Position numbers and translations under genes: made by a program | Assembly (NCBI GenBank): GCA_035544215.1 | Contig: DATKHY010000007.1 | Coordinates: 1,612,001-1,676,000 of the forward strand | Source: Candidatus Binatia bacterium | GTDB taxonomy: Bacteria > Vulcanimicrobiota > Vulcanimicrobiia > Vulcanimicrobiales > Vulcanimicrobiaceae | Direction of reading: 5' to 3' | DNA length: 64,000 bases | Notes under the pieces: generated by a model | What the model was told of the DNA's origin: nothing | The model's database searches: none | Seen by the model: only the letters and a program-made list of their open reading frames with translations | Shown here: piece by piece, positions 6,257 through 39,993 of the stretch | Numbering within the stretch: the stretch's first letter is position 1 | Layout of the letters: every line of letters starts with the position of its first letter

Positions 6257-6331
6257 GGCGCCATCGTCTATCGGTTAGGACATCGCCCTTTCAAGGCGGA
6301 AAGACGGGTTCGATTCCCGTTGGCGCTACCA
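6257..6331 (+). tRNA. tRNA-Glu (anticodon TTC)
   Basis: A 75-base gene including the encoded CCA. The acceptor GGCGCCA pairs with TGGCGCT (G1 with U72 as a wobble). The anticodon stem TCGCC/GGCGG carries the loop CTTTCAA, giving anticodon TTC. The T arm is ACGGG-TTCGATT-CCCGT. The last 24-25 bases recur as direct repeats at 14010-14034 and 37666-37689, which marks this tRNA as the integration site of accessory blocks. Confidence 0.95.
6307..6331 (+). other. Putative attachment site (attL/attB) in the tRNA-Glu 3' end
   Basis: The 25 bases from the T arm to CCA are identical to 14010-14034, and 24 bases ending in the discriminator A match 37666-37689. All three copies have the same orientation. 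This is the pattern left when tyrosine-recombinase elements insert in a tRNA 3' end and rebuild the tRNA. The repeats are seen directly; the att role is an inference. Confidence 0.7.
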
Positions 6332-19990: not shown

Positions 19991-20039
19991 GCCAACCCCA
20001 TCAATTCGAGCGTGCTGCTGCCCTCAACGATCAGTTGCA

Positions 20040-20706: not shown

Positions 20707-20776
20707 TAGTGGCTTGTCGTCGCTGCCAATCTCAGACTGTACTCATAATTATGCGGAATCGCGGACGTTATTTCGA

Positions 20777-20799
20777 CGGCCACATCGCAACAAAGTGGT
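20777..20799 (-). repeat. 23-bp inverted-repeat motif, copy 2 (reverse orientation)
   Basis: On the plus strand GGCCAC, 11 bases, GTGGTT. Read on the minus strand the spacer begins TTTG and the arm ends GTGGCC. Same geometry as the other copies. Confidence 0.5.
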
Positions 20800-20874
20800 T
20801 CGAATAATTGGGCCACTCATCAGCGTCGGGGAAACGTTAGCTGCGTACCTAGCCGCGGATGATTTCTTATCGTC

Positions 20875-20902
20875 TTGACATACTACGGTTTCGTATTATA
20901 CG
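20875..20902 (+). promoter_or_regulatory. Sigma70-type promoter for the SRPBCC gene
   Basis: TTGACA at 20875-20880 and TATACG at 20897-20902, 16 bases apart. The -10 box ends 11 bases before the ATG at 20914, so the leader is very short or absent. Confidence 0.45.
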
Positions 20903-20913
20903 CTATCGGTACA

Positions 20914-21438: not shown

Positions 21439-21872
21439 CAGCGGAGGTTCTCGTCGCACGCCTAGAGGCGCTCGACCTGCAAAATGTCGATTTCCACCAC
21501 CGAGAACATCTCGAAGTGGCATTTTTTTACCTTCGACGCGATGGGGCCGAAGAAGGCACACGCGCCATGCTTCGCGCCATCGCCGCTTTGGCATCGCACG
21601 AAGGGCGTGAAGATAAGTTCCATGCAACCATGACGGTCTGCTGGATTCGTATCATCGCAGCGGCCATGGCAGAAGAACAGGATTGCCAAACCGCGGCCGA
21701 CCTCGTTTCACGTCAGCCAATGCTGCTGGATAAGGAACTGCCACTTCGGTTCTACTCGAGGGAGCTTTTCTTTAGTGCCGAAGCCCGTCGGCGAGCCCTG
21801 GACCCGGATCTCGCGCCCCTGCCGCCGATGCCTCACTCGCTCGGCAACGCCTTGAGTTTCAAGCTCCGATAG
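21435..21872 (+). CDS. Uncharacterised helical protein
   Basis: 145 residues from GTG 21435, whose 4-base overlap with the SRPBCC stop supports translational coupling. The sequence begins TAEVLVARLEALDLQNVDFH and continues HREHLEVAFFYLRRD, then FHATMTVCWIRIIAAAM. I recall this His-rich pattern (FHHREH, KFHxT) from a widespread uncharacterised cytoplasmic family in soil bacteria. The conserved His residues could bind a metal, but that is speculation. Confidence 0.6.
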   Translation: MTAEVLVARLEALDLQNVDFHHREHLEVAFFYLRRDGAEEGTRAMLRAIAALASHEGREDKFHATMTVCWIRIIAAAMAEEQDCQTAADLVSRQPMLLDKELPLRFYSRELFFSAEARRRALDPDLAPLPPMPHSLGNALSFKLR

Positions 21873-21928
21873 TCGTTGCGGGGGAGCAGCCGACGGTCAT
21901 CCAGGGTTGCTGTATCGGTGGAGGCCTG

Positions 21929-22345
21929 ATGCTTGACCTGATCCCGAAACTGCACCGCGCTTCGCACGCCATTGCGCTTCTTATAGCTAACGCGCCCGAG
22001 GTGGATCTGAGTCAAGCGGAGGCTCAAATATTGGCAAGTCTTCACGCACATAGATCCTCGACGATCAACGATCTCCATGCCACGTTTGGCCACCGCAGGT
22101 CCACGATTACGAGTGTGTTGGATCGTCTGGAGCGTCGAGGTCTCATCAAGCGCTCGGTCGATGACGGCGATCGGCGGGTCGTGCAAGTTGCGCTCACGAC
22201 CACGGGAAAGAAGTTAGCATTGCGCGCTTATACCTTGCTGTCGGACGCGGAGTCGCACGTACGCAAGAGATTTTCTGCCGCGGAGATCGATGCGTTCTGT
22301 AACGTGGCGGAGGCCTTTGTGGCGTTGTCCGGAGCGCATCGATAA
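21929..22345 (+). CDS. MarR-family transcriptional regulator
   Basis: A 138-residue winged-helix protein. The DNA-binding core is at about 30-100: AEAQILASLHAHRSSTINDL, then FGHRRSTITSVLDRLERRGL and the wing SVDDGDRRVVQVALTTTGKK. Flanking helices would form the dimer. It lies 56 bases after the previous gene on the same strand and may control this small SRPBCC operon. The ligand is unknown. Confidence 0.88.
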   Translation: MLDLIPKLHRASHAIALLIANAPEVDLSQAEAQILASLHAHRSSTINDLHATFGHRRSTITSVLDRLERRGLIKRSVDDGDRRVVQVALTTTGKKLALRAYTLLSDAESHVRKRFSAAEIDAFCNVAEAFVALSGAHR

Positions 22346-25326: not shown

Positions 25327-25442
25327 ATTGGAGCTTCGTCGATGCTCCGATACCCTTAGCGTATCGTGTTCCCAGGGGAAGTCCGTAATGTCCCGTGCCC
25401 AACATAAGTCTTCCAATGCCCGTTGATCTGCGCGTCAGGCAG

Positions 25443-27677
25443 ATGAGAGCGAGCGGCGTTGCCATTGTGGCGCTTTCTGCATCAATCGCGCTAGCGCCGC
25501 TTCCCGTAGCCGCAGCCGTAAGCTATCCGTCGAGCTTTCACGCGGAGCAAGCTCCCTATAGTATTGGGCCGTCGGCTTTTACGGACACGGCATGGCAGAA
25601 GGGTCTGATGGGGTCGGATTTCTTCAATGTCACGACGCGGGTTCCGAGCCGGCTGTCGACTCGCTCGTACGTCCTGTACGACGGGGCAAATCTCTACGTG
25701 CAGTTCGAATGCTACCAAAAACCCTACCCCGTAACAGCCTTACAATCGACGAACGACATCGGCTTTGGGACGGATGATTTCGTAGGGGTAGGGATCGACA
25801 CGAGCGGCAATGGCTCACAGGTATACTACTTCGAAACGACGCCGGCCGGCGTGCGATACCAAGCAGCGAGCGAAAATGCGCGATACCTGCCGCAATGGAC
25901 TGCGACCGCGCGCCTAACCAAAGAGGGATGGCAAGCCATTTTGGTCATTCCTCTATCCACGATGCGTTTGCGGGCCGGAGGCCAGCAAACTTGGCGCATG
26001 AATTTCATTCGAGGCGTGGCAGCCACAGCCGAGCACTTCAGCTGGGCGTGGAATACGAAAATGGCCGACGCCGTGGGTTCGGCGTGGCCGGTTTTTACCG
26101 ACGCACAATTTTGGCCCAACGTTCAAGTTGCAATCAGTTCAAAGACCGGAGTGGTGCGGGCCAAGCCCCATGCCGAGATTTTCGGACTCCTGAGCACCGG
26201 TGGCGCCAGGCATTTGTTCCAACAGGCCAATAGTACGTTTTTGCCCGAGCCCAATCGACCGTTTGGCGCCGACCTAAGCGTACCGCTAACGAACACGATC
26301 AACTTCGTCGGAACCGTCGATCCAGATTTCTCGAACGTGGAAATCGACCAAGTCACGATCGCACCAAGCGAATTTCAGCGGGCGCTTGTGGAGTACAGAC
26401 CATTTTTTACGCAAGGGGCGAGTTTTCTCAATCCCAATATTATGTCGTCGAGCGGCGCATTCGCGCCGAACAACGTCATCTTCTACTCTCCCGACGTCGG
26501 GCCGTTCAACTCCGGTCAGAAGGTCGAGGGCACCTTCGGGGATCAGTCGTTCGGGCTCCTGCATTTCGAAGGCTTCAACCAGGTCACGAACAGCGACTTC
26601 AACGGCACGGCTTACGGGTATCTTTACGCCTTGCCCGATCAATCGCTACGAATCTGGAGCGACGGAGTGTTGGCGCACGATAGCGTAGCGGGCAACGACA
26701 CGACTGCAGAAATCGGTGCAACGGCACTTGACGTTTCAACCGGCATTAGCGGTGGGTTCAGCCAGTCTTGGGAGGCCGGTTCGTTCGTACCCGATTTACA
26801 TCGAGCGCAAGACTTCGATTCTAACTTCGGAGTTAAGAAGGCCAACTATACGATTATAGGCGTCTATCAGAACGTCTCACCCAACTATGGTCCGATGCTG
26901 GGCTACACTTCGATCTCGGACATTCACGGCTTTGCTTTGGCCGTCGCCGATGGCGGCGCCCTGCCGTGGACAAAATCGTTCAAGGTCGTCATGGGTACCG
27001 ATCGTTTCTTCGACGATTCGGGCGCGATACATCAAAGCGATTTTGGGATTACTACTACCGTCGCCTTAAAAAACCAACTGACTCTATCGGTCGATCCACA
27101 GGTCGGCCTCTTGCGGAGCTATGCGACGCAGGCCCCGACCGCGTCCGACACGTGCCGATCGCCTTCCATTCCCCGAAGTTCATACACCGGTTTTCCCAAC
27201 TATTATTGCCCACTAACGCAACAATACTCGAACCTCGGACTGACGCTCGGCTATCGCGATGGAACGCCCTTTCCCATCGATCTCGGCTACGGAGAGGGCC
27301 CTTTCGGTGGATCATATCTGCATCAGTACAGCAGCTCACTCTCGCGCCAACTGGGGCGGCGGCTTACCTTTTCCATTAACTATGATGGTACGTACGCTTC
27401 TTCGAAAGGCATCCTGTCGTCGCAGTGGCTCCGTCGCGTTAGCGTAAGCGATGCTCTCAGTTCGGACTCAAACGTGTCACTGGAGTACCGGGTTGTCAGC
27501 GGCAATATCCCGTTTGAAACGCAGCCGCCAGGAGCAAATCTCGCCGTAAACTTCCACGAGTTGTTTCGAAATGGAAATACGCTCTACGTCACTTACGGAA
27601 CGCCTGCCGCGTCACAAACTCTCAATCGTTTTATCGTCAAGTACATCTTCAGCTACGGTGGTGGCGCCGGGACTTAG
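25443..27677 (+). CDS. CBM9-like plus DUF5916-type outer-membrane beta-barrel protein
   Basis: About 744 residues from ATG 25443 (the frame is open from GTG 25395; I chose the ATG that starts the signal peptide GVAIVALSASIALAPLPVAA). Residues about 35-220 form the beta-sandwich CBM9-like domain (DTAWQKG, DDFVGVGIDTSGNGSQVYYF, EGWQAILVIPLSTM). Then comes the DUF5916 signature VDPDFSNVEIDQVTIAPSEF with YRPFFTQGASFL. The remainder is alternating strands of a barrel (LTLSVDPQVGLLRSY, LGLTLGYRDGTPFPIDLGYG) ending in an aromatic strand (FIVKYIFSYGG). It probably sits in the outer membrane; the ligand is unknown. Two shorter relatives or remnants lie upstream at 20.5 and 22.9 kb. Confidence 0.8.
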   Translation: MRASGVAIVALSASIALAPLPVAAAVSYPSSFHAEQAPYSIGPSAFTDTAWQKGLMGSDFFNVTTRVPSRLSTRSYVLYDGANLYVQFECYQKPYPVTALQSTNDIGFGTDDFVGVGIDTSGNGSQVYYFETTPAGVRYQAASENARYLPQWTATARLTKEGWQAILVIPLSTMRLRAGGQQTWRMNFIRGVAATAEHFSWAWNTKMADAVGSAWPVFTDAQFWPNVQVAISSKTGVVRAKPHAEIFGLLSTGGARHLFQQANSTFLPEPNRPFGADLSVPLTNTINFVGTVDPDFSNVEIDQVTIAPSEFQRALVEYRPFFTQGASFLNPNIMSSSGAFAPNNVIFYSPDVGPFNSGQKVEGTFGDQSFGLLHFEGFNQVTNSDFNGTAYGYLYALPDQSLRIWSDGVLAHDSVAGNDTTAEIGATALDVSTGISGGFSQSWEAGSFVPDLHRAQDFDSNFGVKKANYTIIGVYQNVSPNYGPMLGYTSISDIHGFALAVADGGALPWTKSFKVVMGTDRFFDDSGAIHQSDFGITTTVALKNQLTLSVDPQVGLLRSYATQAPTASDTCRSPSIPRSSYTGFPNYYCPLTQQYSNLGLTLGYRDGTPFPIDLGYGEGPFGGSYLHQYSSSLSRQLGRRLTFSINYDGTYASSKGILSSQWLRRVSVSDALSSDSNVSLEYRVVSGNIPFETQPPGANLAVNFHELFRNGNTLYVTYGTPAASQTLNRFIVKYIFSYGGGAGT

Positions 27678-27828: not shown

Positions 27829-29325
27829 TTAAGGACTGTCGAGGGCCCGGTTAATGGAAGCGCGCGTGCTCGCGTATCGGCGCCAGGCCGATGCGAGACG
27901 CACGATGCCGGCCTCGATGATCGCCGGGCAAGCGGTATACGAAAGTCGGACGTATTCCGTACAAGACCCATCTACAGTCATGGAACTGCCGGGAAGGATA
28001 CGCACGCCCTCACGCGCGGCAAACTGCGCAAAGGATGTCGCATCTCCAAATGGTAGTCGCACCCACAGGCATAGTCCACCGGACGGCTTTTTAAACTGCC
28101 ATTGCGGCAGCTGCTCAGCTAGTCGCTGGCAAAAAAGATCGCAGTTGTCTTCAAGCTGGCGCCGGCGAAACGTGGCGATCTGGTCGAACGACTCAAGGAC
28201 GCGCAAGGCGAGAACTTGCGAAGGAACGGACGTTCCTAAATCAGACAGCACTTTCAGTCGACCCAAGCGGGCAGCAATGCTCGCAGAGGCGCGGATCCAT
28301 CCAAGGTGGATCCCTGGCCAAAAGACCAGGCTGAGCGATCCAACGGATACGACATTCTCGGGATCAAAATACGCGAGGGACCTCGGCGTCGAACCACTGA
28401 ACGCCGTGGTTTCGAGGGCACAGTCCTCCAGTATCGGCACGTCGTGTTCGCGCGCGAGATTCACGAGCGTGCGTCGCGCATGTTCGGACATAACGTGTCC
28501 GGTCGGACTCTGAAAGGTCGGGATGCAGTACAACGCTCTAAACGATGAGGTTGCCATTTCCTGTTGTAACGAGTGGTCCGTGAAACCCGGTGGGAAGGCG
28601 CGCAGGCGCGCTCCCATAGCTCTGAATGCGTCAAGCGCAACGAAATATGTCGGCTGCTCGATTGCTACGGTTTCGCCCGGGCTGACCAACAACGACGCCG
28701 CGAGACTGAGGCCTTGTTGCGAACCCGTCGTAACGATAATGTTGTCGGCGAGGGTCGGAATCCCAGCGACGGAATACTGCTGCGCGATTCGCTCTCGAAG
28801 GCGCGGCAGGCCGGCCGGCGCATGTATCGAGGGACATTGAAAGTCGTGCAACTCCACAAGAGTCGGGCTGTGCAAATACGGGAAAAACTCGATTGGTAAG
28901 TCGGGCCAGCTCAAGCTCAAATCTACGATGTCTTCTGGCTCCTGGAGTATCATTCCGGACGAAAGGGCGGTGAGCTCGGCGTCTCGTCGCGATGTCATCT
29001 GGCTCCGCGCGGCGGCCGTCCGCACGATACTTCCGCTCCCGCGCCGTCGCTCTAGCAGCCCGTCTTCCTCGAGCATGTCGTACGCGGAAACGATCGTACT
29101 ACGACTCACGCCGCCGGCATCGGCGAACCCACGCTCCGACGGCAGGCGCGTGCCATCGACGATGAGCCCGTCCACAATCGCCTTCTCAACGGCGCCTTTG
29201 AGCCGTACGCGAAGAGGGCCTTTCCCGTGCAGCCAGGTTCCGAGGATTTGGCTCAGTGCCGCAGGCGTCAACATCGGTCCACTCTTGCGCGATATGGGCA
29301 ACCTGTTTGATGCGACCTGTTCCAT
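27829..29325 (-). CDS. MocR/PdxR-type regulator (GntR HTH + aminotransferase domain) lacking the PLP lysine
   Basis: 498 residues from ATG 29325, where the family-typical start MEQV...ISRKSGP begins; the frame is open further upstream. The GntR winged helix lies at about 25-95 (LKGAVEKAIVDGLIVDGTRL, PSERGFADAGGVSRSTIVSA). The rest is a fold-type I aminotransferase domain (GSQQGLSLAASLLVSPGETV, YCIPTFQSPTGHVM). The segment that normally reads SLSK with the PLP-anchoring lysine reads SLSLVFWPGIHLGW, so Leu333 (codon CTG, 28327-28329) replaces Lys. It therefore cannot form the usual internal aldimine and may bind PLP-adducts or another ligand non-covalently. It follows the SDR gene on the same strand. 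Confidence 0.88.
   Translation of the reverse strand: MEQVASNRLPISRKSGPMLTPAALSQILGTWLHGKGPLRVRLKGAVEKAIVDGLIVDGTRLPSERGFADAGGVSRSTIVSAYDMLEEDGLLERRRGSGSIVRTAAARSQMTSRRDAELTALSSGMILQEPEDIVDLSLSWPDLPIEFFPYLHSPTLVELHDFQCPSIHAPAGLPRLRERIAQQYSVAGIPTLADNIIVTTGSQQGLSLAASLLVSPGETVAIEQPTYFVALDAFRAMGARLRAFPPGFTDHSLQQEMATSSFRALYCIPTFQSPTGHVMSEHARRTLVNLAREHDVPILEDCALETTAFSGSTPRSLAYFDPENVVSVGSLSLVFWPGIHLGWIRASASIAARLGRLKVLSDLGTSVPSQVLALRVLESFDQIATFRRRQLEDNCDLFCQRLAEQLPQWQFKKPSGGLCLWVRLPFGDATSFAQFAAREGVRILPGSSMTVDGSCTEYVRLSYTACPAIIEAGIVRLASAWRRYASTRASINRALDSP
29277..29299 (+). repeat. 23-bp motif, copy 7 (weak, inside the MocR gene start)
   Basis: GTCCAC, 11 bases, ATGGGC: the same geometry but poor arm symmetry. 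It encodes PISRKSG of MocR, and shows that part of this repeat family may derive from the MocR coding start. Confidence 0.35.
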
Positions 29326-29428
29326 AGTTCGAGAACTTTCGTAAGATTGTAAATGCAGTTTCCGGATATTTTCGTTGAGCACGAACCCCCTCGGGGTCAA
29401 ATGACTACGGCTTCCTCCGACGTATCCT

Positions 29429-30199
29429 TTAATACAGTGACTTAATGTAGCCACCGTCGATCGCAATCGTTTGTCCGGTGATGTAGCTCGCCGGCTCGCC
29501 GCAGAGGAACGTGACGAGCGGAGCGAACTCGCTAGGGGTCCCCGGCCGGCGCATCGGAACCTCGCGCTGCGCGGCGGAACGAAGCGCGTCTTCGTCGTTG
29601 TCGTACAACTGCCGTAGCCGATCCGTGAGAATGCGTCCCGTGGCTATACAGTTGATGGTAACCCCTTCGGATGCAACCTCTCCCGAGAGCGTTTTCAGCG
29701 CTGCTGTTAGGGCCGTTCGAAAGGAATTCGAAAGGACCAGATTCGGGATCGGCTCTTTAACGGACATCGACGTAAGAGCGACGATGCGACCCCAGCCCTT
29801 GGCGCGCATTCCGGGCAATGTCTTATCGACAAGTGAAAGCATGCTGCGAAGAACTGAACGGTAGCCGTGGTCCCAATCCCCAAGCGACACCTGTAAGTAG
29901 GTCCCGGGCTTAGGTCCACCACCGTTTGCGATCAGGACGTCGATCGGGCCCAGCGTGCTCAAAACGTTCGAGGCGAGTTCAGCCCCAGATGCGTCATCAG
30001 TTTGATCGAAGTGAAATGTTCGAACGGAAGGCGCTCCGAGTTTTCGCGCAGCATCCGCAACTTCACCGAGGCGCTCCTGTCGCCGGGAGGCAAGAGCCAG
30101 GTGTGCACCTTCCTTAGCCAGCGAGAGCGCGACGGCTTCGCCGATTCCAGAACTTGCGCCGGTCACTAAGGCGACGCGGCCGGCAAGCTGAAGATCCAC
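29429..30199 (-). CDS. Atypical short-chain dehydrogenase/reductase
   Basis: A 256-residue Rossmann protein of the classical SDR size. The cofactor motif TGASSGIG (13-20), ANGGG (91-95) and the C-terminal GQTIAIDGGY are intact. The active site is not: with Ser144 in LTSMS as the catalytic Ser, the positions of the YxxxK motif (157 and 161) read S and R in NLVLSNSFRTAL. Known SDR families with this SNxxR variant exist, and their chemistry is poorly defined. It abuts the RidA gene with no gap and lies upstream of MocR, so it is part of the minus-strand arm of the divergent cluster. Confidence 0.87.
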   Translation of the reverse strand: MDLQLAGRVALVTGASSGIGEAVALSLAKEGAHLALASRRQERLGEVADAARKLGAPSVRTFHFDQTDDASGAELASNVLSTLGPIDVLIANGGGPKPGTYLQVSLGDWDHGYRSVLRSMLSLVDKTLPGMRAKGWGRIVALTSMSVKEPIPNLVLSNSFRTALTAALKTLSGEVASEGVTINCIATGRILTDRLRQLYDNDEDALRSAAQREVPMRRPGTPSEFAPLVTFLCGEPASYITGQTIAIDGGYIKSLY

Positions 30200-30571
30200 C
30201 TATCGTGCCTTGCCGGCCACGGCGATGACTGCGATTTCGACTTTATATTCCGGCGCCGCGAGCCTGCTCTCGACCGTTGCGCGAGCCGGAGGATTGTTCG
30301 GATCGATCCAACGCTCCCACACGCGGTTCATGTCATCGAACGCCGCCATGTCCGAAAGCCAAATGTTTGCCGACAGTAATTGTGATTTCGAGCTCTGCGC
30401 CTGCGCCAGGAGAGCGTCGACCTTCGCCAGCACGTTCTTTGTCTGCTCGCCTACGTCGGCAGATTCCTTATCGACCTGGCCTGCGGTGTATAGTAGTCCA
30501 CCGTGCACGACACCTTGGCTCAGGCGTGGGCCCGGCGTCAGCCTTTCGATCGATTCGCTAACGTTAGCCAA
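30200..30571 (-). CDS. RidA-family enamine/imine deaminase
   Basis: A 123-residue single RidA (YjgF/YER057c/UK114) domain: LSQGVVHGGLLYTAGQVDKE at the start, ANIWLSDMAAFDDMN in the middle and PPARATVESRLAAPEYKVEI at the end. The conserved Arg and Glu that bind the carboxylate and activate water are present. These trimers hydrolyse reactive 2-aminoacrylate or iminium intermediates from PLP or flavin enzymes, and 2-aminomuconate deaminases are in the same family. Its start overlaps the MarR stop by 8 bases and its stop abuts the SDR start. A second RidA domain is fused in the plus-strand arm at 33133. Confidence 0.9.
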   Translation of the reverse strand: MANVSESIERLTPGPRLSQGVVHGGLLYTAGQVDKESADVGEQTKNVLAKVDALLAQAQSSKSQLLSANIWLSDMAAFDDMNRVWERWIDPNNPPARATVESRLAAPEYKVEIAVIAVAGKAR

Positions 30572-31010
30572 GATATGCTCCTTTTAAAAGTCCCGAGAGA
30601 CTATCGAGCGCTCGAACCTGTCCCGGTGAAATGACCTCGTGCAGGCGGCGCTGCGCTTTTGTCCAGAGCACAAAAGCCTTTCGGACGACTTGCTTCCCTT
30701 GAGCGGTTAGCTCGTATCGCTTCGTACGATCGTCCTTACCGCGCCCGGATTTGACCCAGCCGTTGGCAATTAGCGGACGCAGTCCCCGTGACAGAGACGT
30801 GACGTCTAGGTCGCACACCTGAGCCAACTCACTAAGGCTACAATGAACGAGTCGATCGAGACGCGCGAGAACGGAGTACTGCGTTTGTTTCAATCCCACC
30901 GGTTCGAGAACGTCGTCATAAATCGCCGTCGCGCGGCGCGCGAGTCCTCGCAGCGTCGTGCATGCGCAAAGCTCTCGGTCCTGCGGAAGAACGTGTGCTG
31001 ATCGTTTCAT
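30564..31010 (-). CDS. MarR-family transcriptional regulator
   Basis: 148 residues from ATG 31010 (an upstream ATG at 31046 would put the start inside the palindromes, so I prefer 31010). The winged-helix core YSVLARLDRLVHCSLSELAQ, DLDVTSLSRGLRPLIANGWV and the wing GKDDRTKRYELTAQGK are clear. It is the first gene of the minus-strand arm and faces the PhzF gene. The two palindromes between them are the obvious autoregulatory operators, with the whole divergent cluster as target. The ligand is probably a pathway substrate (inference). Confidence 0.88.
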   Translation of the reverse strand: MKRSAHVLPQDRELCACTTLRGLARRATAIYDDVLEPVGLKQTQYSVLARLDRLVHCSLSELAQVCDLDVTSLSRGLRPLIANGWVKSGRGKDDRTKRYELTAQGKQVVRKAFVLWTKAQRRLHEVISPGQVRALDSLSGLLKGAYLG

Positions 31011-31019
31011 AAAATTCGC

Positions 31020-31046
31020 TTGTAAATACAAGGCTTGCATATACAA
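31020..31046. promoter_or_regulatory. Paired 12-bp palindromes, probable MarR operators
   Basis: TTGTAAATACAA at 31020-31031 and TTGCATATACAA at 31035-31046, centres 15 bases apart, in the divergent MarR/PhzF region. TTGCAT of the second box is also a plausible -35, with TATCGT 17 bases further as -10 for the PhzF operon, so binding would block that promoter. Confidence 0.55.
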
Positions 31047-31124
31047 TACTTCTGTGCTATCGTTTTGTCAAGGGCTGTCCATCGAGTCGGCCCCCAGTCA
31101 AACGACCGGAGAGGCACCGATTGC

Positions 31125-32027
31125 ATGGACTTGTCCTATTACCTCGTCGACGTCTTTACGGCGGTTCCCCTCCTGGGGAATCCGCTTGCCGTCTTCCCGG
31201 ACGCTACCGGAGTCGACTCTGGAACGATGCAGAGGATAGCGCGCGAGCTGAACCTGTCCGAAACGACCTTCATACTTCCGCGAGAGTCAAACGAGCGCCG
31301 GACGCGCGTGCGCATCTTTACACCTGGCGCCGAACTGCAGTTCGCGGGTCATCCGACGCTTGGTACGGCGTTCGTAATGCGCGCGCTCGGCATCGTGCCG
31401 CGCAACTCCAAGCACTTTGTTCTCCAAGAAAATGTTGGTGACGTTGCCGTCCGAGTCGACAACGGCGAGGATCCGATTATTTGGCTCACGACGCCTCCTA
31501 TCGAGAAGCTCGCGGAATACCCGCGTGAACGTTGTGCGGCGATGGTCGGTCTTCAACCGGGTCAACTCGCTGCGGACGTTCCTTGCGAGCTTCTCTCCGC
31601 CGGGAACGGCTTTATCTTCGTAGCCGTCGATCGACCCGCGTTCGTCGACCAAGCGCGCTTAGATATGGCGGTCTTCGAGCACATCGTCAAGGGCCGCTCG
31701 ACGCCGACGTCCGTGCTCGTCTTCGCGGCTACCGATCAAGGAGCGTATTCGCGCATGTTTGGACCACAGCTCGGCGTCGCAGAAGATCCGGCAACCGGAA
31801 GTGCTACCGGTCCCTTAGCGCTTTTTATGATGAAATACGGCCTCGCGCAAAGCGGTGATGGTACACGCCTTGTTAGCGAGCAGGGAACCCAAATGGGCCG
31901 GCGGAGCTTCCTGCACGTACATGTGAACGGCGAGCGGGGTGCCGCCGGCATTGAAGTCGGGGGGCATGTTGTCGAGTTGGCACAGGGCGTCATGCGCATT
32001 CCGGTTCCGTCGGTCGCAGCCGCGTAA
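31125..32027 (+). CDS. PhzF-family isomerase/epimerase
   Basis: 300 residues from ATG 31125 (GGAGAGG upstream; the open frame extends into the operator region but is not needed). The two-lobed PhzF fold is seen in the start YYLVDVFTAVPLLGNPLAVF, the catalytic Glu of LSETTF (Glu46), FAGHPTLGTAFVM and EDPATGSATGPLALFM near 218-232. PhzF proteins use the Glu for proton shuttling in isomerisation of dihydro-aromatic amino acids and related diaminopimelate-epimerase-like reactions. It is first in a tight eight-gene run, and a fragment of a paralogue lies at 18385-18573. Confidence 0.9.
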   Translation: MDLSYYLVDVFTAVPLLGNPLAVFPDATGVDSGTMQRIARELNLSETTFILPRESNERRTRVRIFTPGAELQFAGHPTLGTAFVMRALGIVPRNSKHFVLQENVGDVAVRVDNGEDPIIWLTTPPIEKLAEYPRERCAAMVGLQPGQLAADVPCELLSAGNGFIFVAVDRPAFVDQARLDMAVFEHIVKGRSTPTSVLVFAATDQGAYSRMFGPQLGVAEDPATGSATGPLALFMMKYGLAQSGDGTRLVSEQGTQMGRRSFLHVHVNGERGAAGIEVGGHVVELAQGVMRIPVPSVAAA

Positions 32028-32031
32028 GAAC

Positions 32032-32391
32032 ATGCCGCACCTTATTTTGGAGTACTCGAGCAATCTCTCTAGCGACGCCGCGATGAACCAGCTTCTGGGC
32101 AAGTTGCACGATGCTCTGGGGAGTATTGAGAGTTTCGAGAGCGACCGAATCAAGAGCCGGGCTCTCCGGTTCAACGCCTACAGAATCGGCGCCGACGACC
32201 GCCGCGGATTCGTGCACGCAACGGTTTTGTTCTCTCCCGGCCGGCCCGAGGCGCTGCGACGCGAACTGGTGAAAAAGCTGCTGACAATTATCATTAGCGA
32301 GGTGCGCAGTGCCTCAGGGAGCTTCTCGTCCAGCGTCGAGATCCGGCAGTTCGAGCCGGGGATGTACGCTACGGAGCGGGACGAGCGATGA
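32032..32391 (+). CDS. 5-carboxymethyl-2-hydroxymuconate delta-isomerase-like protein
   Basis: 119 residues of the CHMI/HpaF branch of the tautomerase superfamily. The start MPHLILEYSSNL leaves Pro at position 1 after Met removal, the catalytic base of tautomerases. The rest (ALRFNAYRIGADDRRGFVHA, EALRRELVKKLLTIIISEV, SSVEIRQFEPGMY) follows the family. It moves double bonds in hydroxymuconate-type diacids in aromatic meta-cleavage pathways. The ATG is 4 bases after the PhzF stop, so the two are cotranscribed. Confidence 0.85.
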   Translation: MPHLILEYSSNLSSDAAMNQLLGKLHDALGSIESFESDRIKSRALRFNAYRIGADDRRGFVHATVLFSPGRPEALRRELVKKLLTIIISEVRSASGSFSSSVEIRQFEPGMYATERDER

Positions 32392-32440
32392 TGAGGTGGG
32401 ACATAAGGGCATCGATGCGACAGATGCCCAACTCGAAGAC

Positions 32441-33136
32441 GTGAGCGCTGTGGCATCAAGGGAACCGGTTCTCGGGCTCGTCGTAGGCGTCGGCTTTGGC
32501 GCCGGAGTGTTCTACTATAAGCGAATCGCGAAGGCGCTAGGGGAAGGCTCTCGCGGAGGCTTAATGCTTGCGCACGCCGATCTTCGCAGGGTTCTTGACG
32601 CCGTTGGCGCCGCCGATATTGCGGGCCTGACGGAATACCTGAATACCATGGTTGCCGCGCTAGCGAACGCCGGTGCCACCTTATCCGCGATTTCTTCGGT
32701 TACGACGCACGCCTACATTTCGCAATTAACGCCCATTGCGCCCATTCCAATTATCAGTATTTTCGACAGTGTAAAGACCGAGCTTGAAACGGCTCCCGGA
32801 AGGCGCATCGCTCTTTTCGGAACCCGTTACGTTATCGAGACCGACATGTTTGGAAGCCTTCCTGGTGTGGATATTGTGCGACCGACAGAGGCTGAAGTGG
32901 CTCGGATTGACGGAGCGTACCAGGGACTTGCGGTTCGGGGGTATGGTACTGCCGAGGATCGAGAGACGTTCAATCGCATAGGCTCGGCGCTGAGTAAGCG
33001 GGAGGGCGTTGACGTGATTTTGTTGGCTGGAACCGATTTGTCCATGCTTTATGAATCGCAAGAGCCGGCATTTCCATCCCTGGACTGTTCAGTCGTTCAT
33101 ATTCGTGCGATCTTGGAGAGGTTCATCAAAGCGTGA
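32441..33136 (+). CDS. Asp/Glu-racemase-superfamily protein without the catalytic cysteines
   Basis: About 231 residues. The start is uncertain: GTG 32396, 32441 and 32450 are in frame, and I chose 32441 because the first strand (VLGLVVGVGFG) follows shortly after. The overall order fits the two-domain racemase fold (LVVGVGFGAGVFYYKRIAKA; IALFGTRYVIETDMFG; VDVILLAGTDLSML). The two cysteines normally found in CNTxH and GCTE are replaced: Ser85-Ser86 in SSVTTH and Gly in AGTD. Superfamily relatives include maleate isomerase and arylmalonate decarboxylase, which depend on at least one Cys, so a different chemistry or lost activity is implied. Its stop overlaps the next start (GTGA). Confidence 0.78.
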   Translation: MSAVASREPVLGLVVGVGFGAGVFYYKRIAKALGEGSRGGLMLAHADLRRVLDAVGAADIAGLTEYLNTMVAALANAGATLSAISSVTTHAYISQLTPIAPIPIISIFDSVKTELETAPGRRIALFGTRYVIETDMFGSLPGVDIVRPTEAEVARIDGAYQGLAVRGYGTAEDRETFNRIGSALSKREGVDVILLAGTDLSMLYESQEPAFPSLDCSVVHIRAILERFIKA

Positions 33137-34407
33137 GGCACGCCATACTTGGCGCCGGGGCCATTGGAGGATTGCTCGGTGCGCTGCTTGCGGATCGAGG
33201 CGAAGACGTCACTTTGGTAATTCATGATGTAGTGGAAACCTTTCCGACGCACATGTCGCTTCAGCGATCTGATGGATCCGTGCTAGGTGGCGATGTACGA
33301 GCCGTTACGTCAATCCATAAAAACGGCGCCGCCGATGTGTTGTGGGTGGCGACAAAGTCGATGGACCTTACTTCGGCGCTCAATGCAGTACGCGGCAGCT
33401 CGCCTCGCATTGTAGTACCTCTACTCAACGGCTTTGAACATATCCAGGAGTTGCGAACGGCGTTTCCGCCAGAGGCGGTGATCCCAGCAACGATCGCGGT
33501 CGAGGTTGAGCGAGGGGAGCCGGGATCCGTATGCGTGCGAAGCTCCTTTGTGCGCCTGCGAATCGGCGTTCGAGCCAAGCTCCTTCTCTCGGGGTTGGCG
33601 GATGCGCTACGCGATCGGGACGTCGATATCGAGTTCGAAGATGACGAAACGACCCTTCTCTGGCGTAAGCTGGTCTTTTTGGCGCCGTTTGCCCTAACCA
33701 CAAGCGCCAGCGGGTTACCCGCCGGCATGTTGCGATCGGATCCCGTTTGGCGAAATCGCTTTGAAACTGCCGCGGCTGAGGTCGTGGCCGTCGCTAATGC
33801 TGAGGGCGCCGGGCTGACGAGCGAACCTGCTGTTCGCACGTTGGAAACGTTGGGAGATCAGATGCGGAGCTCGATGGCGAAGGACCTCGCGGCCAGGCGC
33901 GAGCCCGAACTGGATGCGATCGGTATTGCAGTCGTTCGAGCTGCGGTGAGGCATAACATTGACGTCCCAATGCTGCGGCATCTAGTTGCTTCCGTGAGCG
34001 GGAAGATTAAAACGCCGATTCACTCGACGAAAGCCCCAAGACCGTTGGGTCCCTACAACCAAGCGATAGAGATCGGGGGGCTCGTCTTCTTTAGCGGTCA
34101 ACTTCCCGTGGATTTTGTAACGGGCGAAGTCGTCGGTGACGACATCGGAGCTCAAGTGAGAAAGGCTCTCAGCAACTTGGGCGCCGTCGTCGAAGCGGCA
34201 GATATGACCTTTGACGACATCCTCAAAACGACGGTCTTTCTGACTGAAATGGAAGAATATTTTGAAGAGTTCAACACCGCTTACTCGACGTTTTTTCCAA
34301 GTAAACCGCCCGCGCGAACTACTGTGGCAGTCAAAGCGCTGCCTCGTGGATCAATGGTCGAGATCGACGCTGTGGGCGTTCGAAATACAGCGCCGCGATC
34401 ATGCTGA
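33133..34407 (+). CDS. Ketopantoate-reductase-like protein fused to a RidA domain
   Basis: A 424-residue fusion. Residues 1-285 are a PanE/ApbA-type reductase: NAD(P)-binding GAGAIGG (7-13), PLLNGFEHIQEL, TLLWRKLVFLAPFALTTSAS with the expected catalytic Lys near 178, and SSMAKDLAARREPELDAIG in the C-terminal helical domain. From about 293 a complete RidA domain follows: RPLGPYNQAIEIGGLVFFSG, ILKTTVFLTEMEEYFEEFN and PPARTTVAVKALPRGSMVEI, with the conserved Arg and Glu. No stop or frame change lies between them. I infer coupling of 2-oxo-acid (or imine) reduction with imine hydrolysis. GTG start overlaps the previous stop by 4 bases. Confidence 0.9.
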   Translation: MRHAILGAGAIGGLLGALLADRGEDVTLVIHDVVETFPTHMSLQRSDGSVLGGDVRAVTSIHKNGAADVLWVATKSMDLTSALNAVRGSSPRIVVPLLNGFEHIQELRTAFPPEAVIPATIAVEVERGEPGSVCVRSSFVRLRIGVRAKLLLSGLADALRDRDVDIEFEDDETTLLWRKLVFLAPFALTTSASGLPAGMLRSDPVWRNRFETAAAEVVAVANAEGAGLTSEPAVRTLETLGDQMRSSMAKDLAARREPELDAIGIAVVRAAVRHNIDVPMLRHLVASVSGKIKTPIHSTKAPRPLGPYNQAIEIGGLVFFSGQLPVDFVTGEVVGDDIGAQVRKALSNLGAVVEAADMTFDDILKTTVFLTEMEEYFEEFNTAYSTFFPSKPPARTTVAVKALPRGSMVEIDAVGVRNTAPRSC

Positions 34408-34416
34408 GGAAATGAT

Positions 34417-35559
34417 ATGGAGCTAAAACCCTTTTTACTCGAACAATGGCTCGCAAACTTCGAGCAGGAAATAAAGTATAACCTTGGCGCCAGTACGGGC
34501 CCGCACTGGACCGTCGACGAACTCCTTGGTCTCGCCGGTGAGGACGCTCGTCGGCGAATGTCCGCGTTGGCCCTTACCTATGGTCCGCCAGCCGGTAATG
34601 CGAGTCTGCGAACGGCAATTGCCGACTTCCAAGGCGTGAGTCCGGAGTGCGTACAGGCCGTCACCGGCGCAGCGGAGGCACTACTCATTCTGTTCTGGCT
34701 CGCCGCCGAGCCTGGGGCAAATGTTATCGTGCCCGCGCCGGGCTATCCCGCCTTCTCGGCGCTGCCTCTGTCGCTCGGTTTAGAAACGCGGTACTACCGA
34801 TTTTTAAAAGAGCGCGGCTTTGAGGTGGAGGTCGAGGAGATTAAAGCACTTGCCGACGGAAAGACTAAACTCATTCTCGTCAGCAACCCACATAGTCCGA
34901 CCGGTGCAATTCTGACCGACGCTCAGATGGACCATCTTCACACATTTACTTCAGATCGCGGAATCCAACTCGTCAGCGATGAGGTCTACCATCCGATCCA
35001 CCATAGCAAGAAAGTCCAATCGGCGGCGAGGCTACCAAGGGCGACGGTTATTAATGACTTTTCCAAAGCATTCTCGCTACCGGGCTTGCGAATGGGCTGG
35101 ATAATCGAGCACGATGCTCAGCGACGCGAGCGTTACTGGAACGCGAGAGCGTTTTCTACTGTTTGCAGCAGCTCACTGGGAGAGTTTCTCGCTGAGATCG
35201 CTGCGAACAACCGAATAGCGATCATCGGCAGAGCTCAAGAAGTCACCAGTCGAAACCTTCGCGCGCTTACGGAATTTATGCATGAAAACGAATCCGTATT
35301 TGGATGGATTCCTCCTCGAGGAGGAATGGTCGGCTTCCCTTGGATGAAGGATGGTCAGAACGCGAGGGCCTTTTGTCTCGCAGCCGCGGGCGAAGGGGTG
35401 TTGTTGACGCCGGGAGATGTTTACGATCAACCCGAGCACTTTAGAATCGGCATGGGCGTAAGCGGAGATGCGTTTCTCGAGGCAATCAAGCACTTAGAGC
35501 GTTTAGTGGGCCATTGGAGATCCGCAAGAGAGAATCGCAGTCGCCACGCCGTCGTTTAG
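34417..35559 (+). CDS. Class I/II PLP-dependent aminotransferase
   Basis: A 380-residue fold-type I enzyme. YGPPAGNASLRTAIADF, TGAAEALLILFWLAAEPGA, SNPHSPTGAILTDAQM and SDEVYH are the cofactor-binding blocks. The PLP lysine is Lys217 in DFSKAFSLPGLRMGW, and RIGMGVSG near the end holds the substrate-carboxylate Arg. The N-terminus (FLLEQWLA, YNLGASTGP) reminds me of capreomycidine-synthase-type aminotransferases, but this is a weak recollection. It would provide or consume the amino group in the pathway, and the enamine-forming step would explain the RidA partners. ATG is 9 bases after the fusion gene. Confidence 0.88.
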   Translation: MELKPFLLEQWLANFEQEIKYNLGASTGPHWTVDELLGLAGEDARRRMSALALTYGPPAGNASLRTAIADFQGVSPECVQAVTGAAEALLILFWLAAEPGANVIVPAPGYPAFSALPLSLGLETRYYRFLKERGFEVEVEEIKALADGKTKLILVSNPHSPTGAILTDAQMDHLHTFTSDRGIQLVSDEVYHPIHHSKKVQSAARLPRATVINDFSKAFSLPGLRMGWIIEHDAQRRERYWNARAFSTVCSSSLGEFLAEIAANNRIAIIGRAQEVTSRNLRALTEFMHENESVFGWIPPRGGMVGFPWMKDGQNARAFCLAAAGEGVLLTPGDVYDQPEHFRIGMGVSGDAFLEAIKHLERLVGHWRSARENRSRHAVV

Positions 35560-35594
35560 CCAAACGCGAGTCGACGCCGAGAAGAGAAAACAGT

Positions 35595-35960
35595 ATGAAT
35601 GACAGTCCCGCAGAGTCACAGTTCAATGGGGTAATCACTGAGATCCGCATGTATCGAATCAAAGCGGGTCGCGGCGAGGAGTTTCTACGATGCTTTGATA
35701 CCAGCGTAGCGCCGCTACTGCGCTCGAAGGGAATAGCGGTTGTCGGTCCATTTTGCGACATTGAGAACGGCGATACGATAGTTTGGCTTCGTACGTTTCC
35801 TTCGCTCGAGGATCGCGAGCGTATGTTGGACGACTTTTATGCGAGCGATGAATGGAGAAGCGGTCTAAAAGAAATCACGGGAGATCTGATCGAAGACCAA
35901 AGCCACGCCATCGTGCTTCTACCCGCGAGGGTGTTGAGTGACCGCCGAGACATCGAATAA
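35595..35960 (+). CDS. NIPSNAP-family protein
   Basis: 121 residues from ATG 35595 (AAGAGA 8 bases upstream; the frame is open from 35514 but the extra 27 residues are Arg-rich noise overlapping the aminotransferase). It is a dimeric ferredoxin-like alpha/beta barrel: ITEIRMYRIKAGRGEEFLRC, then DTIVWLRTFPSLEDRERML and FYASDEWRSGL. Family members occur in catabolic operons with unclear chemistry. Its 3' end overlaps the next gene by 23 bases. Confidence 0.82.
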   Translation: MNDSPAESQFNGVITEIRMYRIKAGRGEEFLRCFDTSVAPLLRSKGIAVVGPFCDIENGDTIVWLRTFPSLEDRERMLDDFYASDEWRSGLKEITGDLIEDQSHAIVLLPARVLSDRRDIE

Positions 35961-36549
35961 GCTTGAGTTCTGGTTCGAGTTTGCGAGCACCTATTCGTAC
36001 ATAGCGGCTATGCGTATCGAGGATCTATGCAGGCAGCGTGGCGTGGATCTCATGTGGAAACCCTTCGCCTTGGGTCCAATATTTAAGATGCAAGGCTGGG
36101 AAGACTCGCCATTCAATCTGAACCCGCGCCGAGGATCCTATATGTGGCGCGATATGGAGCGCCTTACGGCAAAGGACAACCTGGCTTGGCGCAAGCCTTC
36201 GGTTTTCCCTAGGAACTCCACGCTGGCTACACGCTTTGCCTGTGCTGCTGAAACACAGACGTGGTGCGGAGATTTCATCCGAAGGGTGTTTGTTGCGAAT
36301 TTTGGCGAGGACGCCGACATCGGCGATTCGTCGATCCTGCAGGCCTTGCTTAACGAAGTCGGAGCGCCGAAAGGCTTTTCCGAGTACGCTACCTCTCAAG
36401 GATGCCACGGGCTGCTTAGACGTAATACCGAAGCCGCAATTGATTTGGGCATATTCGGAGCGCCCAACTGCGTTGTCGGCGGAGAGCTGTTTTGGGGCGA
36501 GGAGACATTGAACGACGCGCTAGACTGGGCCGTCAGCCACCGCACTTAA
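35938..36549 (+). CDS. 2-hydroxychromene-2-carboxylate isomerase-like protein (DsbA fold)
   Basis: 203 residues from GTG 35938. The thioredoxin/DsbA-like start KLEFWFEFASTYSYIAAMRI has Ser17 at the position of the glutathione-activating Ser of HCCA isomerases, and the cis-Pro loop is GAPNCVVGGELFWGEE near the end. HCCA isomerase converts a cyclic chromene acid to the open-chain benzylidene pyruvate in naphthalene breakdown. Other relatives are glutathione-dependent isomerases, so the substrate is open. It overlaps NIPSNAP by 23 bases. A fragment of a close paralogue lies at 23719-23823. Confidence 0.87.
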   Translation: MTAETSNKLEFWFEFASTYSYIAAMRIEDLCRQRGVDLMWKPFALGPIFKMQGWEDSPFNLNPRRGSYMWRDMERLTAKDNLAWRKPSVFPRNSTLATRFACAAETQTWCGDFIRRVFVANFGEDADIGDSSILQALLNEVGAPKGFSEYATSQGCHGLLRRNTEAAIDLGIFGAPNCVVGGELFWGEETLNDALDWAVSHRT

Positions 36550-36584
36550 CCTTCCACGGCTTTTGACGACGAGGAGCTTGGGGC

Positions 36585-37262
36585 ATGGGAATCGACCTAT
36601 CGACTGCAAATCTTGCCGATGCGTGCTTGCGGGTGGGCGCCCGTCCGCGCTGCATCGCGCTGCGCTCGCTGATCGAAGGCACGCGCATCGCGGGCCGGGC
36701 CGTTACGGTGCGTCACGTGGGCAGCGTTGACGTCTTTCTCGAAGCGATCGGTCGGGCGCCCCGCGGTGCGATCCTCGTGATCGATAACGGCGGACGGCTT
36801 GACGAGGCGTGCATCGGAGATCTCGTGGTCGTCGAGGCACAGGCCGCCGGACTGAGTGGTATCGTCGTTTGGGGGCTGCATCGCGATTCGCGCGAACTGC
36901 GTGAGCTGCGAATGCCGGTCTTCAGTCTCGGTGCCATCGCCAACGGTCCGCTGCGCCTTGATCCGCGCGTGGAGCCGACGTTCGGCGAAGCGCAGATAAC
37001 TGATTTTCTCGTCACCGACGGCGACGCCGTCGTCGCTGACGACGACGGCGCGCTGTTCTTTCCCCTCGAACGCTACGACGAAATTGTCGCCGCCGCGATC
37101 GGCGTTCGGGACGTCGAAAACGAACAAGCGCTGCGCGTCAAAGCTGGCGCGTCACTGCGGGATCAATTCGAGTTCGCAGCCTATCTCGAGCGCCGCCGGT
37201 CGGATCCGGATCGCACCTTCCGAGACCACTTACGCGATCTCAAAGCCGAGATCGAGGTGTGA
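36585..37262 (+). CDS. RraA-family protein (4-hydroxy-4-methyl-2-oxoglutarate aldolase-like)
   Basis: 225 residues. The RraA fold is seen from TANLADACLRVGARPRCIAL through ILVIDNGGRLDEACIGDLV, GLSGIVVWGLHRDSRELREL and the late VTDGDAVVADDDGALFFP. The RD pair in GLHRDS matches the pyruvate-binding Arg and metal-binding Asp of HMG/CHA aldolases. Members cleave 4-hydroxy-2-oxo acids to pyruvate plus a 2-oxo acid or decarboxylate oxaloacetate, a fitting last step. It closes the eight-gene run, and a possible terminator follows. A dead paralogue fragment is at 20040-20202. Confidence 0.87.
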   Translation: MGIDLSTANLADACLRVGARPRCIALRSLIEGTRIAGRAVTVRHVGSVDVFLEAIGRAPRGAILVIDNGGRLDEACIGDLVVVEAQAAGLSGIVVWGLHRDSRELRELRMPVFSLGAIANGPLRLDPRVEPTFGEAQITDFLVTDGDAVVADDDGALFFPLERYDEIVAAAIGVRDVENEQALRVKAGASLRDQFEFAAYLERRRSDPDRTFRDHLRDLKAEIEV

Positions 37263-37544: not shown

Positions 37545-37689
37545 TCTAACGGATTCCGCGAAACTCGTCGGGATTCGAAGGGACTAGCCGGGACTCAAAA
37601 ACGCGAAAACCTGTACAGGAAAGGACTATCGGGTATTCGACGGGAGCGGCCGGGACCCCGATTCGCGGGTTCGATTCCCGTTGGCGCTA
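37545..37689 (+). repeat. Att-flanking repeat with tandem 10-bp motif and tRNA-Glu 3' fragment
   Basis: The most complete copy. It opens with TCTAACGGATTCCGCGAAAC, then has three units of about 10 bases in a row (ACTCGTCGGGA, ATTCGAAGGGA, ACTAGCCGGGA sharing their A). An A-rich stretch with CCTGTACAGG follows, then another unit, ATTCGACGGGA. The last 24 bases (37666-37689) equal tRNA-Glu 6305-6328. Confidence 0.65.
37666..37689 (+). other. Putative attachment site: tRNA-Glu 3' end fragment
   Basis: Twenty-four bases identical to the tRNA-Glu T arm plus 3' acceptor strand and discriminator; CCA is replaced by TAA. Direct orientation, 31.4 kb from the intact tRNA. Confidence 0.7.
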
Positions 37690-37852
37690 TAAAAACTCAT
37701 ATCCTATAGGCATTTCTCACGCGACTTCGTCTAACGGCTTCTTGCTGAAGCATCCGAGCCTACACCCCGGGGGGCCACGGTCGCGCGTTGATGTCGGCTG
37801 CGGATTATGCCGAGAACCCTTTGGCTGAATTGCGACGCTCCAATATTGGGCA

Positions 37853-38220: not shown

Positions 38221-39993
38221 TCATTCCGGAGCCAGCGAGCCTCCTGCGAGAAGCGGCTTAAGAAACGCACCGTTGTTGACGCCCACTTCCGCCGCGATGA
38301 GGTCGTTGAGCAGCCGGTTCATCCGCAGAATCGTCTCCCGGTTTTTCTCCGGCTCTAGCGCCAAATTGTGCACTTCATGCGGATCGTTATGCAGATCGAA
38401 GAGCTGCACGTCGTTGTCTCTGAGGATTTCCTCAAGCGTGATTGGAGTATTAAAGGCGGTCGGTGCGTAGTAGCGGCCGAATTTGTACCGTCCGTCGAAT
38501 GCGAACGAAACGAGTCCGCGCTTTGTCAATTTCGCCTGTGATATGGAGGGCTGCGGCGTGGTATTCAGCATTTGCGAGGCCATCACGGCCTGGAGATACT
38601 GGGCATCGACCGTACCAAGCCCCATGTAATTGTAGAGTACGCCCTGGCGCACCTCGTCAACCTTGGCTGCGCCCGGATTCGTCAGTAGTTTTGAGAAGTC
38701 GCGTCCGGCGAGCCCTTTGACGACCGCTGCCTGCTTCTCTTCCGGCACCCCGGTGAGTCCGACGAATGTCGGCAGCAAATCTAGGTGGCTCGTAAGTGCC
38801 CTGCACGTCGCGCCGGTCGCGCCAAGGGGATGCGCGATAAACATCGGCACGTGAGCGTTTTGCTCATAGATGAACGGCCCTTTCCCTTTGAGGCCGCCGT
38901 GTGAGCCGCCCATTTCGCCGTGATCGGCCGTAAAGATCACGACCGTGTCGCGCCACAAATCCATTTCATCGAAAACGTCGACGAGTTGCTTGACGTTGCG
39001 TTCGTTGTCCTGAATTGTGTTCAAATAATAGTTGTAGAAGATCGTCCACATGTCGGTACGATTGGTCGGGATCGTGCCGGACCATCCGTCCCAGCCCTTC
39101 TTGTATTCCGAGAGCGCTTCGGGCATTCCGTGTGCACTCAATGACTCCGCAAGGCTGGGCGCCAACGTCAGCGGCCATTTCTTTTCGTAGATGGAATTTG
39201 GTGGCGGCGGCGGCGTCGCCGATGGCGCCACGGGTTTCTGAACCTCTGGCTCGCCAGGAACGTTGGCGTCGCCATACATGATGTCGTGCGGGTTGACGAA
39301 GGCCGCAACCATGAAAAATGGCTGACCGTGGTTACGCGATTGCAACGCCGCGTTGCGCAGCCAGCGGACGCTTTCGCCTGCGATGAATGAATCGTTCTCA
39401 AAACCGCTCAAGGGAGCGCTACCGATATCGCCGCCGGCGCTGAAAACGTCGAAACCATAGGGTTGAGCAACCGTGCTATAGTTTATGTTTGGTTCGGGGT
39501 TCAGAATGCTCTTGTCCATCTCGAACTTGCCAAAGTAGGCGGTCTTGTATCCGAGCCCTTTTAGGACCGAACCCATGTTGGGAATGCTCGGATTAAGCGT
39601 TGGGACGAAGTCGAACTGCATCTGATCGATGACGTGGTGATATTGCGGAGGTCGACCCGTCAGGAAGGTCGCACGCGACGGCGAGCACTGTGCCGAGGCG
39701 ATGTAATGGTTGACAAAGGCAACGCCGTTGCGCGCGATTCTGCCGGTACCCGGTAGCGTATATTCGGGTCCGCCAAGAAGTTGATGGGTCTGCTGATCGA
39801 CGATAATGAAGACGATGTTATAGGGCGGCTTTTTGGGCGGCCCCTTTCGCACGACCTGATGTTCGGCTGGTTGCGCGGACGGCGATGCCTCTGCGACACT
39901 AGGTAATCCGAGGGCGGTGGCGGCCAGAGTGGATGCTCCGACCAGAACGTCACGACGCGTAACAACAGTAGCCTTGGACTCGACTTCTTTCAT
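38221..39993 (-). CDS. Secreted sulfatase (formylglycine-dependent)
   Basis: 590 residues with a twin-arginine-type leader (TRRDVLVGASTLAATALG). The alkaline-phosphatase-fold sulfatase core begins YNIVFIIVDQQTH with metal ligand Asp66. The modification motif is CSPSR with Cys103, followed by ATFLTGR, so the class I CxPxR signature for conversion to formylglycine is present. FTADHGEMGGSHGG gives the second set of metal ligands, and DLHNDPHEVHNLA is the usual C-terminal block. Likely reaction: hydrolysis of sulfate esters outside the cytoplasm. No formylglycine-generating enzyme gene is in the window. Confidence 0.92.
   Translation of the reverse strand: MKEVESKATVVTRRDVLVGASTLAATALGLPSVAEASPSAQPAEHQVVRKGPPKKPPYNIVFIIVDQQTHQLLGGPEYTLPGTGRIARNGVAFVNHYIASAQCSPSRATFLTGRPPQYHHVIDQMQFDFVPTLNPSIPNMGSVLKGLGYKTAYFGKFEMDKSILNPEPNINYSTVAQPYGFDVFSAGGDIGSAPLSGFENDSFIAGESVRWLRNAALQSRNHGQPFFMVAAFVNPHDIMYGDANVPGEPEVQKPVAPSATPPPPPNSIYEKKWPLTLAPSLAESLSAHGMPEALSEYKKGWDGWSGTIPTNRTDMWTIFYNYYLNTIQDNERNVKQLVDVFDEMDLWRDTVVIFTADHGEMGGSHGGLKGKGPFIYEQNAHVPMFIAHPLGATGATCRALTSHLDLLPTFVGLTGVPEEKQAAVVKGLAGRDFSKLLTNPGAAKVDEVRQGVLYNYMGLGTVDAQYLQAVMASQMLNTTPQPSISQAKLTKRGLVSFAFDGRYKFGRYYAPTAFNTPITLEEILRDNDVQLFDLHNDPHEVHNLALEPEKNRETILRMNRLLNDLIAAEVGVNNGAFLKPLLAGGSLAPE

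Follow-up and report, generated by a model that had tools for sequence, protein, structure and literature searches.

Organization of the gene cluster

The host is a soil bacterium whose phylum has hardly any cultured representatives. The window (the whole 64-kb stretch of DNA that was analysed) contains a divergent, tightly spaced cluster of twelve genes at 27829-37262, all open and uninterrupted. The genes and the control elements between the two arms are as follows:

27829..29325, minus strand: MocR-type regulator (GntR and aminotransferase domain), YczR-like; start at 29325 (Pfam, NCBIfam)
29429..30199, minus strand: SDR-fold protein without the YxxxK pair (NCBIfam, structure relatives)
30200..30571, minus strand: RidA-family protein, separate gene (sequence)
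30564..31010, minus strand: MarR-family regulator (Pfam)
31020..31046, no strand assigned: predicted tandem MarR operator TTGTAAATACAA-GGC-TTGCATATACAA, 15-bp period (pattern search)
31043..31071, minus strand: MarR promoter-like site TTGACA-17-TATTGT, 10/12 (promoter scan)
31125..32027, plus strand: PhzF-family isomerase (Pfam, NCBIfam, structure alignment)
32032..32391, plus strand: CHMI-family tautomerase (Pfam, sequence)
32450..33136, plus strand: Asp/Glu racemase-superfamily protein (Race), start codon uncertain (Pfam, alignment)
33133..34407, plus strand: PanE/ApbA reductase fused to a RidA domain (Pfam, NCBIfam)
34417..35559, plus strand: PLP fold-type I aminotransferase-like enzyme (AT), GntC/PRK07324 group, long branch
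35595..35960, plus strand: NIPSNAP-family protein (Pfam)
35938..36549, plus strand: DsbA/kappa-fold protein, HCCA isomerase-like (Pfam)
36585..37262, plus strand: RraA/HMG-CHA aldolase-family protein with D-x20-R-D (Pfam, NCBIfam, sequence)

Every cluster protein scanned reached or exceeded the curated Pfam cut-off, the families being GntR and Aminotran_1_2 (MocR), MarR, PhzC-PhzF, CHMI, Asp_Glu_race, ApbA with ApbA_C and Ribonuc_L-PSP (PanE-RidA), Aminotran_1_2, NIPSNAP, DSBA (HCCA isomerase-like protein) and RraA-like. The SDR was assigned by NCBIfam, and the separate RidA was recognised from its sequence. The original prediction, which had named these twelve families and their divergent layout, is thus correct in its gene content, and the overlaps that it gave are exact: 8 bases between RidA and MarR, 4 between Race and PanE-RidA and 23 between NIPSNAP and HCCA. 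Gaps are similarly short, with 0 bases between SDR and RidA, 4 between PhzF and CHMI and 9 between PanE-RidA and AT. No RNA families were found in the region.

A predicted tandem operator lies between MarR and PhzF

A MarR operator had been proposed for the intergenic region, and a candidate is present there: TTGTAAATACAAGGCTTGCATATACAA at 31020-31046, between MarR and PhzF, consists of two sites with a 15-base period (TTGN6CAA-N3-TTGN6CAA) and is the sole match in the window, where 0.09 matches are expected. The site TTGACA-17-TATTGT directed toward MarR is the best promoter-like site of the region. The tandem operator extends into its -10 element and also holds a possible -35 element of PhzF (TTGCAT).

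Searching the genome for the operator pattern with up to three mismatches returned five sites, every one in front of MarR and/or PhzF genes. Besides the site in the window, these are located upstream of a PhzF and of a MarR gene on contig C1, upstream of a third PhzF (C1:205794) and at C1:226968, where a decayed MarR lies on one side and a PhzF remnant with a Rid-family gene on the other. The promoter-like site before the C1 MarR has the layout found in the window. The other 148 genomes contain a single match with one mismatch, in a genome of the same genus; it precedes a MarR (87%) and a RidA (89%) gene, with a PhzF remnant on the opposite side. Since the genome-wide and same-genus sites all precede MarR and/or PhzF genes, the predicted tandem operator most likely belongs to the MarR of the cluster, which would act as a repressor.

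A third, decayed MarR/PhzF remnant with an operator was observed at L157 (1034-2141), beside a Rid-family gene and with an IS3-like transposase nearby.

A decayed second copy is present in the same genome

A block on contig C1 (L156, G000:C1:205500-222500) represents a decayed second copy with the same gene order, reversed. It comprises a fragment of the neighbour gene found at 25395-27677 in the window, followed by a MocR that is cut after the GntR domain (79% identity to the window MocR over 97 residues). Identities of the further genes to their counterparts in the window are 79% for SDR, 83% for RidA, 76% for MarR, 76% for PhzF, 56% for AT and 63% for NIPSNAP. An S9 peptidase is inserted between the C1 MarR and the C1 PhzF, and the operator is duplicated there. 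The C1 PhzF carries a frameshift near its start and a Val in place of the catalytic His. Between the two copies, dN/dS values range from 0.10 to 0.30 (MarR, RidA, SDR, PhzF, NIPSNAP).

CHMI, Race and PanE-RidA are absent from the C1 copy. However, the RidA domain has left its final ~70 bases (LPRGSMVMIDALGVRNP) before the C1 AT, with an alignment score of 80 versus at most 31 in 500 shuffles. PanE-RidA, or at least its RidA end, was therefore already linked to AT before the two copies separated, and it is the C1 copy that has undergone reduction. A recent duplication of the whole block is not a simple explanation: in the tree, the window AT forms a long branch outside the group (98/88) that contains the C1 AT, so it evolved faster or has a separate source.

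That the cluster is a functional unit had been deduced from its spacing. The operator and the same order of genes in the decaying copy add to this, and the sequence evidence supports the twelve genes well as one regulatory unit.

Further paralogues are common to window positions 19532-22345 and C1 204.9-208.9 kb, in a different order; they encode a thioesterase-like protein, two uncharacterised proteins and a MarR-type regulator.

Relatives carry parts of the gene set

The full twelve-gene set was found nowhere else among the 149 genomes of the phylum, so no conserved context is available to name the substrate. The original prediction had proposed looking for the neighbourhood in other genomes, an order confined to this genome counting against it. 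The outcome is divided: the full order is unique among these genomes, yet the second copy in the same genome shows that it was inherited as a unit.

Relatives of PhzF at E 1e-35 are encoded in 75 of the 149 genomes. The neighbourhoods of the 20 closest contain cluster partners in five cases, namely AT2-PALP-SDR (L190), AT2 and RidA (L191), RidA (L192), SDR (L194) and MarR-MocR-RraA (L200). The MocR at L200, from another genus of the family, is 86% identical to that of the window. The PALP protein of L190 belongs to the threonine-dehydratase family and is a PLP enzyme, and a PALP-RidA-AT arrangement occurs in genome G073. Relatives hence hold sub-combinations, in which PhzF is accompanied by RidA, SDR, a threonine-dehydratase-like enzyme, RraA or MocR.

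For AT, about 55 of 80 loci are close relatives, nearly all from Acidobacteriota and without conserved neighbours; the pathway could thus not be named by way of conserved AT neighbours. Race orthologues in the phylum are few, and none adjoins other cluster genes; among 397 genomes of the order of Terracidiphilus, Race homologues stand alone. Because the homologues of both proteins are mostly solitary in Acidobacteriota, they give no functional hint.

Two families were observed alongside: lone genes of the AT family are widespread across Acidobacteriota (L076-L132), and standalone genes in the same phylum encode an AGTD-bearing, Cys-less clade of the Asp/Glu racemase superfamily (L224-L243).

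The cluster is probably located on a tRNA-Glu island

A tRNA-Glu gene is located at 6257-6331, and 22 bases of its 3' end recur without mismatch at 14.0 and 37.7 kb:

6305..6329, plus strand: first att-like repeat copy, at the tRNA-Glu 3' end
14008-14032: tRNA-Glu 3'-end repeat, third copy
37666..37690, plus strand: tRNA-Glu 3'-end repeat, right edge of the probable island

About 400 bases separate the end of the cluster from the last repeat. Since the repeats bracket the region, the cluster is probably island-borne, on a single island or on two in tandem, of 7.7 and 23.7 kb. Among ten proteins scanned, no integrase was recognised. A genomic island, which we consider likely, would explain the scattered occurrence of the genes.

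At 14622-16084, the coding sequence of a serine hydrolase of the beta-lactamase family is divided between two overlapping frames, and a sulfatase-like gene (38221-39993) lies immediately beyond the right-hand repeat.

Sequence features of the cluster proteins

In the PhzF protein, the residues aligned with E45, H74 and D208, the catalytic residues of PhzF, are present (alignment to 1T6K/1U1V). The CHMI-family protein retains a Pro right after the Met. In the RraA-family protein, GDLVVVEAQAAGLSGIVVWGLHRD gives D-x20-R-D, the metal/substrate motif of the CHA/HMG aldolases of this family; its score is below the LigK cut-off (65.4 versus 304.5 bits). Both parts of the fusion protein pass their models, the RidA domain TIGR00004 (135.2 versus 106.25 bits) and the PanE domain TIGR00745, the ketopantoate reductase family (161.3 versus 141.35 bits).

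The SDR-fold protein has NLVLSNSFR where the catalytic YxxxK pair is expected and is in that respect not a classical SDR. It is close to PRK08339, 1O5I and 2Z1N, the last of which likewise has no YxxxK.

Race belongs to the same Pfam family as the Asp/Glu racemases 3OJC and 2ZSK (53 bits to 3OJC), but has lost both catalytic positions (Cys or Thr at one, Cys at the other), reading VTTH and AGTD where xNTxH and GCTE are expected. A two-residue Asp/Glu racemase was rejected for this reason. The AGTD signature is common to nearly all Race homologues from Acidobacteriota and this phylum. Of the designations racemase and HCCA isomerase used originally, the family membership stands, whereas the activities are names only.

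The best match of AT is the cyclase GntC (8FFT, E 5e-53), its closest solved or characterised relative, and the profile agrees. Like the PLP cyclases GntC, OrfR and VioD, AT has a matching N-terminal segment with E9 and Ser26 (S25 in GntC), and Lys217 (K219) and Arg343 (R346) are matched as well. Only cofactor, carboxylate and N-terminal residues are in common with GntC, however; the substrate-specific N52, T84 and H250 are replaced by Tyr55, Ala86 and a non-His residue, the Tyr at position 55 being aminotransferase-like. GntC-type cyclisation by AT was rejected on these grounds.

Comparison with known pathways

The cluster contains no ring-opening oxygenase, as predicted. In addition, LigB-type (PF02900) and intradiol dioxygenases (PF00775) are absent from the genome, whereas the control genomes were positive for both; for 3-hydroxyanthranilate dioxygenase (PF06052), neither the genome nor the control genomes gave a match. 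Because the first two are missing, ring fission by these classes is unlikely, a ring-cleavage pathway using them was rejected and a non-aromatic substrate is favoured.

The lower pathway of 4,5-cleavage employs an isomerase of DAP-epimerase-like fold and an RraA-type aldolase. Protocatechuate/gallate 4,5-cleavage (LigU/GalD, LigK/GalC) resembles the cluster in this pair, but the cluster has PhzF and not a PrpF-type isomerase and contains no hydratase, the genome is without LigB and the RraA protein is far under the LigK cut-off. The 2-aminomuconate routes (kynurenine, 2-aminophenol, nitrobenzene) have in common with the cluster a Rid-family protein, a tautomerase and 2-oxo acid chemistry; the cluster is without their ring-cleavage dioxygenase, semialdehyde dehydrogenase and decarboxylase. 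The 2-aminomuconate label suggested earlier stands as a family name only, and the fused domain fits RidA (TIGR00004) far better than 2-aminomuconate deaminase (6IZH). None of phzABCDEG is among the cluster neighbours. A search of the literature, with incomplete coverage, found no matching cluster or pathway for this combination of genes, in agreement with the initial view that none is described.

Enamines are classically produced by PLP enzymes and dehydratases and removed by RidA. The enamine/imine chemistry that had been proposed is supported by the two Rid domains and by the relatives, where RidA and a PLP enzyme resembling threonine dehydratase accompany AT or PhzF. MocR regulons repeatedly include PhzF and RidA genes (PMC5320631). 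RidA-linked catabolism by PLP dehydratases or aminotransferases, together with these regulons (PMC5320631), is the known system in which PLP enzyme, RidA, PhzF and MocR occur together as they do here; the cluster adds MarR control, CHMI, the PanE-RidA fusion, NIPSNAP, the DsbA/HCCA-type protein and RraA.

Proposed function and alternatives

We tentatively favour, at somewhat less than an even chance, a single divergent unit, repressed by MarR and carried by the probable tRNA-Glu island, that dissimilates an unusual (hydroxylated or unsaturated) amino acid. Dissimilation of an amino acid is preferred because the partners in relatives (PALP, AT, RidA) point to enamine or imine intermediates derived from amino acids and because PhzF and RidA recur in MocR regulons; substrate, order of steps and catabolic direction are inferred. 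MarR would sit across both promoters on the tandem TTGN6CAA operator until freed by an inducer, probably the substrate or its product. AT may then take off the amino group or carry out an elimination, yielding an enamine or imine that the RidA protein and the RidA domain would hydrolyse to a 2-oxo acid. The PanE domain could reduce the 2-oxo or imino acid, CHMI and PhzF could shift double bonds or protons, and the RraA-type aldolase would release pyruvate or oxaloacetate. MocR, a PLP-binding regulator, may read the amino acid or the PLP status. Several observations argue against dissimilation: the unit holds no transporter, no final dehydrogenase and no acyl-CoA step, which leaves a catabolic route with neither entry nor exit; no role can be assigned to SDR and Race, which are without canonical catalytic residues; the full set has no counterpart in the other sampled genomes; and the mostly solitary AT and Race homologues of Acidobacteriota offer no hint of function. 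We further suggest, as a doubtful possibility, that an undescribed, oxygen-independent amino acid route of enamine, tautomer and aldol steps is encoded and that the AGTD-bearing, Cys-less racemase branch performs a reaction other than racemisation.

The cluster offers a delimited set of regulated genes, a predicted operator of defined sequence and, in the decayed second copy, an internal evolutionary control, in a barely cultured phylum. PhzF, NIPSNAP, PanE-RidA and the Cys-less racemase fold are poorly understood families that partly co-occur in relatives, and the substrate, once solved, would assign a function to several of these families at once.

Alternatively, MarR could sense a toxic electrophile or a reactive enamine or enal and switch on enzymes for its clean-up (RidA, PanE reductase, kappa-type DsbA protein, PhzF, NIPSNAP, RraA) that form no single linear pathway. 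MarR regulators commonly respond to toxic small molecules, and two Rid domains, a GST-kappa/HCCA-type protein, the lack of a transporter, the S9 peptidase inside the decayed copy and the operator beside the decayed MarR/PhzF remnant that precedes a Rid-family gene would all be in keeping with damage control. AT, CHMI and the RraA aldolase, however, look like stages of a metabolic route, and the presence of MocR implies PLP or amino acid metabolism; we regard such a regulon as unlikely.

The genes might also be a patchwork that duplications and insertions assembled on the island, any joint pathway being limited to a core of MarR, RidA, SDR, PhzF, AT and NIPSNAP. The mosaic of sub-combinations in relatives, the long branch of the window AT outside the C1 AT group, the att-like repeats and the spread in G+C across the cluster genes, from 0.52 (NIPSNAP) to 0.64 (RraA), fit such an origin. 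Overlapping reading frames, the single operator and the RidA-domain stub on C1, by which the linkage to AT is older than the split, speak against it, and we consider it improbable. Least probable is that the cluster makes a non-proteinogenic amino acid or another small molecule by a route of the cyclic-arginine or phenazine type: hydroxylase, NRPS, ligase, export or resistance genes and other phz genes are missing and AT does not conserve N52, T84 and H250 of GntC, even though this cyclase (8FFT) is its nearest solved relative and PhzF and PanE/RidA families are found in biosynthetic pathways.
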